This document shows, one piece after another, positions 17,513-46,450 of a DNA stretch of 64,000 bases. The DNA is from Polytrichum commune. Lineage: Eukaryota; Streptophyta; Polytrichopsida; Polytrichales; Polytrichaceae. The translations under genes and the position numbers were made by a program. Where the stretch lies: assembly GCA_950295325.1 (NCBI GenBank), contig OX485809.1:29404144-29468143 (forward strand), given 5' to 3'. Positions within the stretch are counted from its first letter, which is position 1. Each line of letters opens with the position of its first letter. The notes under the pieces were generated by a model, which did not search any database, was not told the DNA's origin, and saw nothing but the letters and a program-made list of their open reading frames with translations.

Positions 17513-20500
17513 TTACCATGCTTTCACCCATTCATAATCTGTGTCTTCAGAGTACACATCTTCTTCACCGAGAACAACAAAACTGCCAATTTGATCAAGG
17601 ACCATACCACTTCTACCATAGAAGCCCACAATCCTACCCCGTTCACTTTGAAATGGTGTCTCACTGTCTCCTCCAAATGGACCATATTCTTTTACGTTGG
17701 AACATATTGTTAATGATGTCACACTTGTGACTGCATGAGGACCGAATCTCACCGCTGGAGTGATGCCAACAGTCCCTTTAATTTGAGCCAAAAACTCACC
17801 TGGCTCAGTAAAGTCGATCTGCATAAAGAAAACATGCAAATTCTATTTAGTTCATCAAAATTTGAGGTATTTTTATTGCATTTAAATGTGGTGGGTGTGT
17901 GTGTTGCCCCCCTCCTTTTTTTCTCATATATTACAATCTAGATTAACAACTGTAACATGTGATCTAGACTAGTGTATGATACGGGATGGCAAAAAATCAT
18001 AAACTATCGGATTACATTATTGTTGACAAGATAGAGTTCAATTCCATTATAACAAAATCCATTACATAAGCATGAGTAAAAACCTAAATTCAGACTCCCA
18101 ATGTTCTTTAGCTAATTTTAATGTTTAACATCATGCTATAATTCGCAATTTTGGTTGACAAGATCATTTGCTTATGTTTGTGGGCATACCGTCTCAGTCT
18201 TTGAACCGTAGCTGGCATCGCCATGACCTGCTGTGAAGGTGATCCCATTGATATCATATTCTGCCTCAAAGTACCATATGCACCTTGGTTGCACATCATG
18301 TTTCACAGTTATCCGTTTGATGGATGTGACTATACCATCAAAGAAATGGCCTCCACCATTGCCTCCCCAAGGTCCTGATACCTGTTTCAATCAATGGCAT
18401 TGTGGTGATGTCACATATAAAGATAAGTATATTGATGTTACCTTGACTTTTAATCTCATCAAAGAATCTAGTTATGGAAATCTACGATTATACCTAAGCT
18501 CTTACTCCCTTTCATTAATATGAAATACCATGATTACATTTTTATTTAATACATAAAATTTGTAACCTATGGGTCATGAATAAAATGTAGCAACTTAAAT
18601 TTATCCTCAATTTTTTACATTACATATTTAAGATTTATAAAGCCCATCAAACCATGAAACATCTTCGGTTGTGATATGAGCCCCAATTGTATGATGAGCC
18701 CCAATTGTATGCTTGATATTGCTGACAATGTTCAACATTAAGAAAATTCTCCTAATATGTATGTTACATCGTATATCTTCTTTGTTGTGGGAGAATGTAT
18801 ATTTATGTATACAACCATGTGTAAAATCTCCTATTTTTGCCGCATCGTGGACACAATCCTATTTGAGACAACTGGGTGTTGTGCATTTTGATATTTAAAA
18901 TTGCTTATGAGTTACCATTTGTTCAACATATATGTTCCACCATTTGAATTATGACCTCATAGATGTTTTTCTAAGGAGCTTAGGATGTAACGTGGTCAAT
19001 ACTTGATGTCATGGTTGTTTTGGCTCATAATTTAGAATTGCATCATCAGGGTATTTCATGGAACACACAAGATACAAAATGCAACCACCGACATATGCAA
19101 ACTACGTATAATACTTATATTCAATGTGCTATGTGCTTTGGTTATTTTACTTTATTGGAAATGGTTGAACACAAATTTCTCAATGAATTTAAGAAGTTCC
19201 ATGACCTTGAACATCTAAGAACTCAAATTTAAAGTATAAAACACACTTACAAGTGTTACTTGTCATAATAATGTTAATAAACCATCCTTTAAACCATTTG
19301 TAAATAACATGTCTAGAAAACAAAACAAACAATAGTTTATGAATATCTAATGGACTTTGTCAAACACACTAAAATTTATAATATGTTTAATTTTATGGTC
19401 ATATTGGAAGACTTGAAGACCTACTTCAAGGTTACATTGATAAAAATGTGGCATAGTGTACTAAGTGCATCCTTTTGAAGCACATAATCATTCATATTTA
19501 TGTTATATATAATTCAAATACTTAAATATTATTTTGCAAAGGTCTAAAATCTACCTTGCCTTTCTTGGTGTTGAGAATCTTTTCAAACTTAAAATTATTT
19601 ATTTATTTATTTATTGATTGTCATGAATTTTTCAAATAAGTGTGTCATGAGATTATGAGGTTGGTAAATTATGAATGACTTTATTTGTCCAACCATTCAT
19701 AATTGCAGTGGCAAGTCCCTACATATTTGTTTGTGTTGAAATGAACAATGCTAGAATATTCAGAATCAATTAAACAAAGGTAAAAACCATGCCACTGGGT
19801 TTCCATGAATTATGACCTTACCTTTGCACCATCTAAGTGGAACTTGGGAATCTCGGTTTGCTCCAACTTTGGTTTGTCACCTAGACAAAAACAAATGAAC
19901 AAAAACCACATATCATATATTTGATTGTCAACTTATCCATCAATTTCCATTACATGACATTTCTTTGTCTTGTTGGTAACAAAATTTCTTAAGAAATCAA
20001 TTCCAATTCACAAAGACACTTTGATACACGACAATTGTTTTTTAGTAACAAAATAAATCAACTAGTATGTACATGTGCGGTCTTAGTTTTCATGAAAGTT
20101 GATGCTAGATTTTACTGAAATATTATGGTTAAATTTTCAAATCATAGTTACCTCTCAACAGAAGACCTTTGATGTATCTCAATTCCTTGCAAATTGCAAA
20201 GAAATCAGGACGCCGACGCGGATTCATATCCCAACAACGTTGTATGAGAACCGCCATTCTAGAGGGGATTCCTTTAGGCAACTTTGGTCGCTCACCCGCC
20301 TTCACACGTGTTTTCAATCGAAATTGATCATGGTATGGTTCTTTTCCAGTCAAGAGCTCGTAACACACAATTCCAAAGCTATAAACATCAATTTTGTTGG
20401 GTTGAAAACGACTTGAAGGTGGCTCATCGTTATCTTCGAGATCAAAGACCTCTGGGGCCATCCATTGTCTGGTGCCAGTGTTTAATGTTTGATGGGAGTA

Positions 20501-21736
20501 ACGAGTACTCATGTTCTTGACCTTTGTTAGGCCAAAGTCAGCAATTTTTAAAATGAGTGGAGCACTCGTAGAAGTAGATGTCATTGCCATCTTAGAATCC
20601 GCAACCTTCACCAGGATGTTGAGTGACTTGAGGTCCCGATGTACCAAACTCTTGCTATGGATGTATCTGGCCCCCTCTGCAATTTGGAGCATGAGATCCA
20701 CAGCTTGTGTATTTGAGAATGGAGGAGCCATACTATTTGTGTTGGTGTTTTGCGATCTATAATCTTGAAGTAGGTCAAACAAGCTCTTGAACATACGTTC
20801 CATAACAATCCCAAACTTATGCCCATCTTCTGAACAACACACAATATGCACTATGTGGGGATGGTTTAGCCCTACCGATGCAACAAGCTCTTGTTTAAAA
20901 GATGGTTGTCCAATTGGCCCATCAACAAATATCTTATGCGCAAACTTCTCACCCAACCATGTTGTTTCTCTTACTTTTGCAAATGCACCTCTTCCAATCC
21001 ATCTACCTTTCGGAAGGTCTTGTGGATTTACCCATAGGAAATGGGGTGATGATTTCGGGTCCAACCAACCCATCTCTTTCTCTTCGGCATCCAATTTATC
21101 AAGCAGTTTGACCGCTAAACATTTCTCACCCATATTTTGTTTGCAGGATTCATCATCACATACATGATCTCCCTTCAAGCATTTGAGGAGGTCATTGAGG
21201 TGCTCTTGGTCGTGTTTTGCTGCTATCAACAAGTTGAAGAGGTCGGTGTATAATAAGTTACCATCACATGTTGTGGGCTCAAAAATGTCACTTGTTGGAA
21301 CCAAAATGCTACACAACAATGACATTTGCCATTGAATGTCATATAAATTTTTTGCGAACGTTTCCTTCATGTTGCCTTGCTTGATTGAAACCATGAGCCA
21401 TTTTTCTTCACAACAAGCTTTGATGAGGACATCAACCTCTTCCAAAATCCTAAGAAGTTCTTCCTCCATTGGAATCCAATTTTCAATACCCGAGACATTC
21501 TTCTGGATCTTTGGGCCATGTAGTGCTTTGCATAGTTCTCTAAATACCTCTCTGCATTCAGAGGTTTTTTTGGCAACAAGTTTCCATTGTTGGGGGTTGA
21601 TGTTGACTTTCGAGGCGTGCTCGCAAATGGACTCAATTGTTGTGTTGATGTTACTTTTCATGACTTCATTGAAGTTTATGCAAGACATAACTTCTTTGGG
21701 TTCCCAAGTACTTTTGACAATGATTGAAAATGACAT
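17513..21736 (-). CDS. Protein kinase-jacalin lectin fusion
   Basis: Four exons: 21736-20152, 19880-19822, 18381-18190 and 17818-17513; all junctions are GT-AG and frame is kept, giving about 713 aa. Residues 1-230 are mostly helical and Cys-rich without a signal peptide; placement before a TKL kinase resembles the helical N-termini of plant MLKL-type proteins (inference). The kinase (about 240-525) has every key element: glycine loop GRGAFAKV (248-255), Lys268, Glu283, HRDLKSLN (366-373), DFG (400-402), MAPE (426-429) and DVYSFG. A short linker exon leads to a jacalin-like lectin (about 549-713) with GPWGGNGGGHFFDG at its start and GPFGGDSETPF...GRIVGFYGRSGMVLDQIG near its end, the conserved jacalin repeats. 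It is probably a cytosolic carbohydrate-responsive kinase, perhaps in defence. No premature stops. It stands alone, with no neighbouring gene in 5 kb on either side. Catalytic activity is predicted, function inferred. Confidence 0.9.
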
Positions 21737-24549: not shown

Positions 24550-27500
24550 TGTGAACCCTTTGAGTGGTCCACCACTCCGCGGGACCACTTTTAGTTAGAA
24601 TGATAGCATCAAAATTTAGAATTGATGGGAATTTAGGGAAAATTAGTTCATTTACTATTTAGCCTAGAAGAAGGAAGGTGAAGTACCGAGGACTTCGGGC
24701 CTTCAACCGAAAGTAACAAAATTCTAGTAAAGGGTAACGTTCGTTAACATGAAAACTAAATAGTGCTAGAAAGTAACGAAGTAGAAAAAATATGCTAGCT
24801 AGTAAAAATTGCTAGCTAAGCAAATGTTAATAGATGCTAGCTAAGCAAATGATAGTAGATGCTAGTTAAGAAAATGTTAGTAGAAGCTAGATAAACAAAT
24901 ATTAGTTTATTAGTTAATGGGGGCCACACAAGACTATTGGAGGTGTTTGGCGTAAGAAGACAAAATCGGCTTGAAATTTTTTGAAAAAAACAAAACAAAA
25001 AAACAAGGGACTACTTGCCCACTTGCCCCCTTGCCAACTCAATGGCAAAAATTTAGAAATATTTCTAAGGTTTCCCGTCAAAGCCACCTCGGCGAGAGGG
25101 TGGCAACCTCAACCGAAAAAACCCCCGAGCCAAAATTTCAGGAAATCCAATAAACCGAGGAGAATTGAGGTATATTAACTAACCCTAGCCTTTTATTTAG
25201 GGTTGGAAGGAGCGTGGCGAAGGTATGCATCTCTAAACTTATTCACCTATTTCGTAAGGTCAAGTGATATGACCACTTGACCGCTAAGGGAATACCCAAC
25301 TCCATTGTTCTCGGGCCCCTTGGTATGTTTTGTGGTAGTAGTTTTATTTATTAGCAAGTTTTGTATGTGGTAAGTCGGATTAATCACCAACACGACCACT
25401 CTGAATGTTGTTGGTGGAAATGTGGGATTAATGACCCGTGAATCCACTATTATGTTGTTGGCCCCATAGATTGGGAGTAATGACCCCAATTTCTGAAGAT
25501 TGTGCAACAGGTTGAACCTACAGGTTGCCCGTCACCCTAGTCCCATTAAGTTGCATTTCGTGGTCTATCCAGTGTAAACACACTTAACAATTAAAACATA
25601 CAAAACAAATCGTAATCTCTTGTTGACAAGAGACCCAAATCGAAAATTTAATTCGGTAGGGTGACACCACCCTTCGGACCGTTGAAGTCCGAAGGGTTTG
25701 AGATGTCACTCGACCTTCAAAAGACCTCCACGAGACCTTAGAAGGTTCTGAGGTAAGGGGTGCACCAACCAGGTAAGGGGTGATGCCTAATATATGAATA
25801 TAGTGAGGTAAGATGTGCAAACGAAATTAAGTAATTAAGAAAGAATTTGTGTAAAGGGTGGGACTTAGGCCAAGTTCCCTCGTTTAGAAAATTAAACATA
25901 ACTAAATAAAGAAATAAGATGAATTGAATGGTCCATCAAATCGTCATTATTCCGTTCATTGAGCTAGGGTGGTATGAGTCACACCGGTTGGTGTGTATCA
26001 GAACCATCCCAATTCACAAGTTAGGATTGTCTTGGTTTCAAGGCTGATGTGTATGCACTTAGAATAGGTTTTAGGTAAGATTAGAACTAGACATGAAATT
26101 GGTTAGTAGAGTTTAGAGCCACAATAGTAAAAAAACTAAGGCCCAACCTCCGAAGGTACTACAACGCATATTTAATTTCGCTTAAAAATCTAAGTACTCA
26201 CGTTATACACCTATCATCCGGGTTGGGCTTAGGCACCTGCAAGTGCAGGCCACCTTCACCAAAGGGCTTGTGTGATACTTTTAGGCTCCCTCGGAAGGGG
26301 GTGGCCCAAAAGTACTACATGATTGTACGAAATATTGCGTAGGTCATTGTGGTACTTTTGGGCCACCCCCTTTCGAGGGAGCCTAAAAGTATCACACAAG
26401 CCCTTCGGTGAAGGTGGCCTGCATTTGCAGGCGCCCAAGCCGAACCCGGATGATAGGTTTATAACGTGAGTAGTTAGATTTTTAAGGGAGATTAAATATG
26501 CGTCGTAGTACCTCCGGAGGTTAGGCCTTAGTTTTTTACTAGTGTGGCTTTAAACTCCACTAACCAATTTCATATCTAGTTCTAACCTTAACCTACAACC
26601 TATTCTACGCGCAGACGCACCAGCCTTGAAACCAAGGCAATCCTAATTTGTGAATTGGGATGGTTCTGATACACCCAACCGGGTGTGACTCATACCACCC
26701 TAACTCAACGAACGGAATAACGACAATTTGATGGACCATTCAATTCTTCCTATTTCTTTATTTAGTTCTATTTAGTTTTCTAAGCGGGGGAACTTGGCCT
26801 AAGTCCCACCCTTCACACAAATTCCTTCTTAATTACTTACTTTTGTTTGCACGTCCTAACTTACTACATTAACATATTAGGCATCACCCCTTACCTCGGG
26901 TCTCTTGCCAACAAGGGTTTACGATTTATTTTGTATGTTTTGATTGTTAAATGTGTTTACACTGGATAGACCACGAAATGCAACTCAATGGGACCAGGGT
27001 GACGGGCGACCTGTAGGTTCAACCTGTTGCGCAATCTTCATAAATTGGGGCCATTACTCCCAATCTATGGGGCCAACAACATAATAGTGGATTCGCGGGT
27101 CATTAACCCCACCTTTCCACCAACAACATTCAGAGTGGTCGTGTCGGTGATTAATCCGACTTACCACACACGAAACTTGCTAATAAATGAAGCTACTACC
27201 ACAAAACATACCAAGGGCCCCGAAAACAATGGAATTGGGTACTCCCTTGGCGGTCAAGTGGTCAAGCCACTTGACCTTACGAGATAGGTGAGTGGGTTTA
27301 GAGATGCGTACCTTAGCCGTGCTCCCTCTAATCCTAAATGGAAGGCTTAAGGTTAGTTAATTTACCTCAATTTTCCTCGGTTGATTTGGGCTTGATGTAG
27401 GCCGAGCCGCTACCTCCTTCCTTGCTCCACTTTCCGAGCGTCGACCTTGCCTCCTTCTTTGTAACTAGTTTGGTAGTAAGCGTACCTTAGTTAACAATTA

Positions 27501-44518: not shown

Positions 44519-46450
44519 CTCCCTCCGTTTCATATCAAAAGTTACGTTTCACTAAATATGTGGGATTAAGGTCATTTTTAGCATTTTTAGCACGAAATTG
44601 TGTGCGTTGTATAGCTCTCACTAAGCACTTTCCGGTGAGCTAGGGGTGTCCAAAAAAAAATCAAATTTTTTTTAACGCCAATTTCATTGGAAGCCCGTCA
44701 TTTTGGGCGGATGGCACCGAAGCTCATTTGCTAATGAGTAGTGAGGTTGAGACTCGTGCTCCTTAAGGTTTGTGTTTAGGGTTAGGGTTTTTGAGAAGAA
44801 ACGGCATGGCGATGTCCATTTATGATGAAATCGACGTTGACGGTGATGCTCACGGAGTGGAGATGGAGCCCATTGTGAACAACAAGAAAAAACCCAACCT
44901 GGGTAATGAGAACCGCCAGTTGATCTACCAGAAGTTGTTCGCCAAGCAGCGAGACGATGGATCGCTCCCGAAAGGTGTTTTACTCAATGTTGGCAAGGAG
45001 TTCGGTGTCACACGTCAATCCATCTCGCGAATTTGGAATCGTGGAAAGCAATCACTTGCGGCTGGCGATCGGTTGGCCAACATATTGAATCGCAAGCAGA
45101 AGACAAGTCGCAAGAAGAAAATCATCGACATGGATCGGATTAAGGCGGTTCCGCTAAGACAACGCGGAACTCTGCGGGCGTTAGCAGCTGCGCTTGGCGA
45201 CGTGTCATCCACGACCATTCATCGTCGCATTAAGGACAAGAGTCTCAGATTCCATTCAAGTGCGGTTAAGCCTTTCCTCACCAATGCGAACAAATTGGAG
45301 CGGTTGAAGTTTTGCCTGTCCATGTTGACGTACGACACTTTGCAGCACCGGGATTACAAGTTCGACAGCATGATGTGGAATATCCATTTGGACGAAAAGT
45401 GGTTCCAGGTGACGAGAACCCAGACCGGATACATCCTTGCGCCAGACGAGACGGACCCTCATCGTACGTGCAAGAGCAAGCGCTTTATTGACAAGATCAT
45501 GTTCCTCTGTGTTGTCGCGCGACCTCGATGGGATACAGTTCGGAATCAATATTTCGACGGCAAGATCGGAATGTACCCATTCATTAGGGTTGAGAAGGCC
45601 AAGAGGGCCAGCCGCAATCGCCCAAGAGGGGCAGACGTGATCAAGCCAGTGGATGTCGATTGGGAAGTGTCGCGTCGGATGCTGATCGATAAGGTGCTCC
45701 CAGACATTCGTGCAAATTTCCCGAAAGGATGGGACGGGATGGGCCCTGAACGGGAGATTGAGCTTCAGCAAGACAACGCGACACCCCATGTTAATGGCGA
45801 TGATGAAGAGCTCGCTCCTGAGCTCATCAAGGACGGCATCAAGATCGTGCTCGTCAATCATCCGCCGAATTCGCCTAACATGAACGTTCTAGACTTGGGA
45901 TTCTTCCGCGCAATTCAATCGTTGCAACACACTCTGCCTCAAGAGGGGTACGCTGGGATCATCAGTGCGACAACAAAGGCCTTCGAATTGATGTCGACGG
46001 ACGCGTTGAACAATGTTTTTCTCACTTGGCAGTCGTGCATGATTGAGGCCATCATGACTGAGGGGTCGAACCACTATAAGATTCCACACATGGGAAAGGC
46101 AGCGTTGCAACGTAGGGGCGAACTTCCTCACACTTTGCGTTGTTTGGCAGAAATCGTTAGGAATGCTCGTGAATTTGTTGAAGGCAACACACCCGTTCAT
46201 CACCATTGACGAATGATACACATAAAACCGTGTTGATGTTTGGGTTTAGGTTGAGTTCAAATATCAATTGTTAAATAAGTGTAAATTGTTAGTTGATTGA
46301 CTTGGTAGTTCATCAGCAACAACATTTACATTGCTTATAGCAACATTCCAATTCGTTTGACGAAGTTTGAAAGAAATTTCACCAAACGTATCTTTTGTTT
46401 CGTAACGCAAATTATGTCCAAACGTAACTTTTGATATGAAACGGAGGGAG
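44519..46450 (+). mobile_element. Mariner-like element, apparently complete (1932 bp)
   Basis: Terminal inverted repeats begin CTCCCTCCGTTTCATATCAA and are identical for 31 bases at both ends. A TA duplication flanks the element (44517-44518 and 46451-46452). The CTCCCTCCGTTTC end is the classic end of plant mariner-like elements and of Stowaway MITEs. One uninterrupted transposase gene fills the interior. Perfect ends and an open gene indicate recent insertion compared with every other transposon here. Confidence 0.95.
44806..46209 (+). CDS. Mariner-like (DD39D) transposase
   Basis: An intronless gene of 467 aa from the first ATG (44806) to TGA, the usual size for plant mariner-like transposases. 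The N-terminal third has two helix-turn-helix segments (GKEFGVTRQSISRIWNRGKQ and LRALAAALGDVSSTTIHRRI) that would bind the 31-bp ends. Catalytic motifs: NIHLDEKWFQVT (first Asp), IELQQDNATPHV (second Asp), and HPPNSPNMNVLDLGFF; the Asp in LDLGFF lies 39 residues after the second Asp, giving the plant DD39D triad. The nearby SPD aspartate usual in the family is Asn here (SPN), which could affect activity. Codon use is more GC-rich than the surroundings. A telomere-like TTTAGGGTTAGGGTTT lies 16 bases upstream of the ATG. Cut-and-paste transposition at TA sites is known for the family; activity of this copy is untested. Confidence 0.94.
   Translation: MAMSIYDEIDVDGDAHGVEMEPIVNNKKKPNLGNENRQLIYQKLFAKQRDDGSLPKGVLLNVGKEFGVTRQSISRIWNRGKQSLAAGDRLANILNRKQKTSRKKKIIDMDRIKAVPLRQRGTLRALAAALGDVSSTTIHRRIKDKSLRFHSSAVKPFLTNANKLERLKFCLSMLTYDTLQHRDYKFDSMMWNIHLDEKWFQVTRTQTGYILAPDETDPHRTCKSKRFIDKIMFLCVVARPRWDTVRNQYFDGKIGMYPFIRVEKAKRASRNRPRGADVIKPVDVDWEVSRRMLIDKVLPDIRANFPKGWDGMGPEREIELQQDNATPHVNGDDEELAPELIKDGIKIVLVNHPPNSPNMNVLDLGFFRAIQSLQHTLPQEGYAGIISATTKAFELMSTDALNNVFLTWQSCMIEAIMTEGSNHYKIPHMGKAALQRRGELPHTLRCLAEIVRNAREFVEGNTPVHHH

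Follow-up and report, generated by a model that had tools for sequence, protein, structure and literature searches.

We report that a gene of the moss Polytrichum commune, lying on the minus strand of a 64,000-nucleotide stretch of DNA (hereafter the window), encodes a protein kinase preceded by an N-terminal region whose kinship to plant MLKL proteins is supported by profile comparison, and followed by a jacalin lectin. The N-terminal region and the kinase, together termed the cassette, also begin the kinase-NB-ARC-LRR genes of the moss PNL class. In a cluster of sister genes, the sugar-site loops of the lectin show unusually rapid change, of the kind that a sensor of pathogens would be expected to show. 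We propose, with a probability of about 0.5, that the window gene is an intracellular immune sensor-executor in which the lectin serves as the sensor.

Plant MLKLs are cell-death proteins, the triggers of which are, to our knowledge, unclear. A relative that carries its own lectin suggests a direct, testable trigger. If it is true that an MLKL-like cassette heads the moss kinase-NLRs, the role of the pre-kinase region in this receptor class would be explained. Rapidly changing sugar-site loops in a kinase of the cell interior would suggest that glycans or effectors are contested in an arms race separate from the NLR and receptor-kinase systems.

The coding region (Table 1) is interrupted by three introns, all GT-AG and of phases 1, 0 and 0. 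Six combinations of splice sites were tried, only one of which gave a frame of more than 700 codons (713 residues); along it, the splice model and Pfam place the N-terminal region, the kinase, a linker and the jacalin domain in that order. Pfam assigns residues 245-519 to PK_Tyr_Ser-Thr (E 4.4e-42) and residues 550-690 to Jacalin (E 6.5e-27), with no convincing match before residue 230. Since relatives begin near window residues 22-26, the true start may be M17 or M26. The initial annotation had described a complete TKL-type kinase joined in one frame to jacalin exons, with clean splice sites, no stops, a lectin C-terminal to the kinase and no membrane segment, and our analysis bears out each of these points; the best 19-residue hydropathy window is 1.24. 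A membrane lectin receptor kinase was considered and rejected, because hydropathy reveals no hydrophobic segment and, in the Pfam order, the kinase precedes the lectin. The signal peptide, membrane segment and lectin-first order of such receptors are thus not what Pfam order and hydropathy display here, the best 11-residue window near the N-terminus being 0.97 on a measure that is no signal-peptide predictor.

Table 1. Features of the kinase-jacalin gene, in window coordinates
Feature	Position	Strand	Basis
Whole coding region, four exons, 713 aa	21736-17513	minus	Splice model and Pfam
Exon 1, with a phase-1 donor: codes for the N-terminal region and the kinase	21736-20152	minus	Splice model
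N-terminal region (residues 1 to about 240), classed as MLKL-type from the family profile	21017..21736	minus	Profile searches and reversed control
Kinase domain, residues 244-519	20180..21007	minus	Pfam, PDB search, motifs
Exon 2: 59-nt linker joining kinase to lectin	19880-19822	minus	Splice model; paralogues; comparison of window gene with L001
Exon 3: first jacalin portion	18381-18190	minus	Splice model and Pfam
GG loop, GPWGGNGGG, residues 551-559	18349..18375	minus	Sequence aligned to solved lectins
Exon 4: second jacalin portion, C-terminal tail, stop	17818-17513	minus	Splice model and Pfam
Recognition-loop region, about residues 631-645, limits approximate	17720..17764	minus	Alignment to solved lectins
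Predicted GXXXD sugar-binding motif, GMVLD, residues 683-687	17594..17608	minus	Comparison of window gene with L001; role from PMC4059138

The genome containing the window (407.8 Mb in 64 contigs, of which seven long ones make up nearly all) holds 37 matches to the jacalin exons and at least 147 to the N-terminal region, which we count as cassette matches (E up to 1, weak ones included, 150 of 240 candidates having been scored). Eleven of the 13 other regions fetched (L001-L010 and L012) carry a cassette and jacalin exons in the same order and on the same strand; L011 has cassettes only and L013 jacalin only. Including the window gene, 12 loci found in the genome have a cassette followed by jacalin. 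A jacalin match lies within 9 kb downstream of 11 of the 147 listed cassette matches and upstream of none, and this asymmetry, together with the recurrence of order and strand in paralogues, indicates an arrangement beyond chance. The nearest copy of the window gene, L001, lies 25 kb away and splices in frame through four exons to give 714 residues, while the spliced frame of L004 gives 721. A separate downstream jacalin gene is rejected in view of the single joined frame and of the order, strand and linker recurring in paralogues, and we take the kinase and jacalin exons to form one gene. It remains true that reading into intron 1 meets a stop after a few codons, so a transcript ending there could give a lectin-less kinase; yet the notion that exon 1 stands alone as a kinase gene, with the jacalin exons forming another, is highly improbable given a linker exon and intron phases that recur in the paralogues and a joined frame that is open throughout.

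Between the window gene and L001, dN/dS is 0.31 in the N-terminal region, 0.16 in the kinase, 0.16 in the linker, 0.32 in exon 3 and 0.23 in exon 4, values that are rough because dS (0.75-2.25) is near saturation but that show the pair under ordinary constraint in every segment, the lectin included. Other copies are damaged: exon 1 is disrupted in L005 and L006 and fragmented in L012, L002 is without exon 3, and L010 (C5:28000-32700, some 30 kb into contig C5) has a short deletion just before the exon-1 donor. A tree was built from 29 cassettes, leaving aside L005, L006, L011, L012 and L013. All nine usable jacalin-type rows fall on one side of a single branch (100/98), recovered in all 200 bootstrap trees; for the rows sampled, a single fusion event is therefore enough, on a tree that is unrooted and has some long branches. 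Jacalin exons also occur in clusters at C7:39227220-39416989 and C7:20059306-20061883, with no cassette match nearby, and several matches in these clusters read through one in-frame stop.

The TKL kinase is apparently active, its catalytic motifs being intact (K268, E283, HRD 366, DFG 400, APE 427), and HRD, DFG and APE were found in all nine family rows checked. Compared with the PDB, the full window protein matched 6ka4 (E 6.9e-42) and 6lba (E 6.3e-37) ahead of every other kinase, mainly through its own kinase. We take 6lba and 6ka4, the entries of which are titled 'Protein kinase family protein' and 'F22L4.1 protein', to be Arabidopsis MLKLs. These are the best PDB relatives of both the kinase and the N-terminal profile, with the two parts in the same order, but they differ in that the aligned parts of the matched chains hold no jacalin and that their kinases, as aligned, lack the catalytic residues. 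An Arabidopsis MLKL, narrowly defined, is a pseudokinase, whereas the window kinase retains K, E, HRD, DFG and APE; the protein is therefore filed as MLKL-like and not as AtMLKL.

The window sequence alone matched no MLKL model of Pfam in its N-terminal region, and the relationship emerges from the family. A profile (A1) built from 16 of the 29 N-termini, near-duplicates having been dropped, ranked 6lba first among 177,635 PDB sequences (E 1.3e-9) and is collinear with residues 7-127 and 184-229 of that chain; second place went to an unrelated chain (0.0011) and third to 6ka4 (0.066). Disjoint subsets of these 16, namely seven jacalin-type rows (A2) and six PNL-type rows (A3), each returned 6lba first, if weakly (E 0.0048 and 0.0039). 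A reversed-profile control (A4, 11 of the 16 rows) lacked 6lba altogether, its best match being 0.028. The MLKL-like N-terminus foreseen in the initial annotation is thus supported, and a kinase closest to 6ka4 and 6lba following a region with such profile homology would place the protein among the plant MLKL type. Searched singly with Pfam at E up to 1, the 16 N-termini gave weak matches to MLKL_N in five (best 8.4e-4), to DUF1221 in four (best 1.5e-3) and to RPW8 in one, both scores seen falling under Pfam's cut-off; one N-terminus matched ATG17_like better (E 2.2e-4). DUF1221 has been equated with the N-terminus of AtMLKL (PMC10951266). For a plant MLKL-type protein, a four-helix bundle with brace would be expected in this region; a single-sequence structure model of residues 1-235 is all helix but poor (mean pLDDT 38.5).

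The cassette also occurs ahead of a different partner. At L028 (C2:17388300-17394300) and L029 (C6:799400-804400), one frame runs through the N-terminus, kinase, NB-ARC and LRR, and the LRR part of these kinase-NB-ARC-LRR genes is an array of very similar repeats. Pfam detects an NB-ARC frame just downstream of the cassette in L014 and L027, and a similar frame was seen by eye in L019 and L025. In L028, L029, L014 and L027, the part preceding the kinase shows kinship to the N-termini of plant MLKLs. Across the genome, an NB-ARC match lies within 4 kb downstream of at least 24 of the 147 cassette matches and upstream of none among the matches listed, 126 of 466 NB-ARC candidates having been scored. 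This sharing of the cassette, absent from the initial annotation, shows that PNL-class genes and kinase-jacalins begin alike. The PNL class has been described as moss-specific (PMC3352924). For Pkn-NLR receptors, the accessible text of PMC11218826 calls the N-terminus a kinase and does not mention HeLo; MLKL appears three times in it, in two cases for a distinct class of proteins and in the third within the title of a cited work. The window gene thus has the N-terminal region and kinase in common with the PNL/Pkn-NLR receptors of these two reports (PMC3352924, PMC11218826), a likeness seen within its own genome, and differs in carrying jacalin where they have NB-ARC and LRR after the kinase. 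L033 (C3:43649600-43653600) has a cassette with about 400 further in-frame residues, by eye possibly a degenerate second kinase, on which Pfam gave no match at E 0.01; the tandem-kinase reading was dropped, as Pfam detects one kinase there.

Judged by its residues, the lectin is a mannose-type jacalin and a candidate sugar binder, with both the GG loop and the GXXXD motif of that type. The sugar site of jacalin lectins is formed by the GG, recognition and binding loops (PMC4059138). The G and D of GXXXD are retained in 9 of 12 copies, with one or both lost in L005, L009 and L012.

The C4 cluster, six recent copies sister to the window gene, reveals how such lectins diverge. In exon 4, dN is 0.052-0.144 and dS 0-0.057, and the ratio exceeds 1 in all 14 computable pairs (15 in total). 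Exon 3 gives dN/dS of 0.45-2.35, above 1 in 6 of 10 pairs, and exon 1 gives 0.43-1.10, above 1 in one of six pairs; when exon 1 is split, its N-terminal part gives 0.42-0.79 and its kinase part exceeds 1 in five of six pairs, on 3-7 synonymous changes. Codon models were fitted with a purpose-written implementation, using one-ratio (M0) and M1a/M2a tests, which are limited by few sequences, gene conversion and multi-base mutations; four of the six copies were used for exon 1 and five for exon 3. Exon 4 gave w 3.0 (p 0.013) with M1a/M2a p 1.2e-6, and exons 3 and 4 together gave a one-ratio p of 0.039 and M1a/M2a p 6.2e-8. Exon 3 alone gave p 0.005, its one-ratio test (2dL 0.59) not being significant, and exon 1 gave w 0.91 and p 0.26.

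Such values could also arise if the C4 lectins were decaying under relaxed constraint, in which case the apparent diversification would be spurious, produced by gene conversion, by locally uneven mutation and by the small number of tandem copies, some of them broken. The exon-1 w is compatible with this, as are the broken exon 1 of L005 and L006, the missing exon 3 of L002 and the one-ratio test restricted to the three fully intact copies, which is not significant (w 1.28, p 0.48). The site test argues otherwise: it holds for those three copies (M2a p 1.1e-6), for exon 4 in the four copies that remain without those broken in exon 1 (M2a p 9.3e-5; M0 p 0.037) and after removal of the recognition loop (p 8.9e-4).

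Comparison with non-coding DNA bears on the same issue. Exon-4 dN is higher than intron 3 in every one of 10 pairs (mean 0.092 versus 0.046; five of the six copies), higher than intron 2 in 8 of 10 (intron 2 mean 0.079) and higher than the 3' flank in 7 of 10 (mean 0.085 versus 0.076, L005 omitted as unalignable), the other three pairs being as decay would have it. Tests on two disjoint pairs, which include the broken copies L005 and L006, gave 0.082 changes per nonsynonymous site for the lectin exons together, a rate that exceeds intron 3 (0.034, p 1.9e-6) as well as intron 1 (0.057, p 0.0097) and does not exceed intron 2 (0.073, p 0.25); exon 4 was likewise not above intron 2 (p 0.42), and this too fits decay. 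The three lectin loops, however, reach 0.153 (26/169.7) and exceed introns 3, 2 and 1 (p 6.7e-9, 6.9e-4 and 1.2e-5), and they hold 11 of the 19 sites with posterior >0.8 while spanning 39 of 160 columns (p 9e-4), p-values that are optimistic, as the extent of the loops was set with the sites already in view. Outside the loops, the lectin (0.061) is not above introns 2 or 1 in the same two pairs. The idea that the whole lectin evolves above the intron rate was dropped, being true against intron 3 and false against intron 2; only the loops exceed all three introns. Exon 1 lies far below intron 1 (49/2519.5 versus 128/1870, p 3e-16), which, like the loops, speaks against decay, a reading that we judge unlikely.

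The cassette looks like an executor under constraint and the lectin loops look like a variable sensor. The fast loops of the C4 lectins would lend indirect support to the idea, put forward in the initial annotation, of a kinase that senses glycans inside the cell. We infer that the window gene works like its C4 sisters, although the fast lectin change is in the C4 cluster and the window pair is ordinarily constrained. On the sensor-executor proposal, the protein would reside inside the cell and consist of a helical region of MLKL type, a TKL kinase that is apparently active and, at the C-terminus, a jacalin of the mannose type. The lectin would bind a microbial or damage-exposed glycan, or a pathogen protein. 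By analogy with MLKL biology, binding might free the kinase and brace, after which the helical region might act on membranes and bring about cell death or an influx of ions, whether or not the kinase also signals.

The main rival holds that the jacalin is an integrated decoy, mimicking a host jacalin targeted by effectors and sensing proteins rather than sugars, with the cassette executing as in NLRs with integrated domains. Cereal NLRs are reported to include some with an integrated jacalin, for which a decoy role has been discussed (PMC5536079), fast surface-loop change fits either kind of ligand, and part of GXXXD is lost in three copies; yet the fast sites cluster at the sugar site while most copies keep the G and D of the motif, and we consider a decoy role somewhat unlikely. 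Alternatively, the lectin could act only as an address tag that directs a constitutively active stress kinase to the glycans of membranes or of sites of infection, with the helical region a plain scaffold devoid of death activity. Such a tag would have no need of fast-changing loops, and the N-terminus is kin to MLKL and not to a known scaffold, so that this role seems improbable even though the kinase motifs are intact and the lectin domain of a rice dirigent-jacalin protein moves that protein to the site of attack (PMC5536079).

Extending the sensor-executor proposal to the family, we tentatively suggest that mosses mount interchangeable sensors, either NB-ARC-LRR in PNL or a jacalin with fast loops, on one executor cassette of MLKL-type region and active kinase. 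Kinase-jacalins might then be NLR-independent intracellular immune receptors with a polymorphic sugar-binding site, and moss kinase-NLRs might be MLKLs with an NLR sensor.

Parts of this architecture are already known. Kinase-then-jacalin proteins (JacLK) have been described from cereals, rice among them, and homologues are named for Aquilegia and Physcomitrium patens; overexpression of OsJacLK1, which binds both mannose and chitin, increases resistance to blast (PMC13165441). Kinase is, moreover, among the frequent partner domains of jacalin (PMC5536079), and with these reports the earlier view of the kinase-lectin architecture as little-studied is not supported as it stood. The window gene has the JacLK order of kinase then jacalin, but OsJacLK1 has two jacalins and is without the HRD motif, and the available portion of that report does not mention an MLKL-type region (PMC13165441); the likeness is by description, not by sequence. 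The same applies to Pm13 of Aegilops longissima, an immune gene and a precedent for MLKL-type active kinases as resistance genes, in which an MLKL-type N-terminus precedes a kinase with its key residues, no lectin being described in the accessible text (PMC10951266). The literature searched (supplements and preprints lay outside its scope) yielded no account of a plant protein that combines MLKL with jacalin, and jacalin, MLKL and kinase were co-mentioned there only in the context of ulcerative colitis and immunoglobulin glycosylation. Within this literature, three points are new: that kinase-jacalins carry an MLKL-type N-terminus, that moss kinase-NLRs share it, and that the loops of the lectin change fast.

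Elsewhere in the window, a 480-residue open frame on the plus strand (44767-46206) carries DUF7769 and a Tc3-type transposase helix-turn-helix and is probably a Tc1/mariner-like transposase, and a 25-nt unit is repeated in three head-to-tail copies at 24803-24877.
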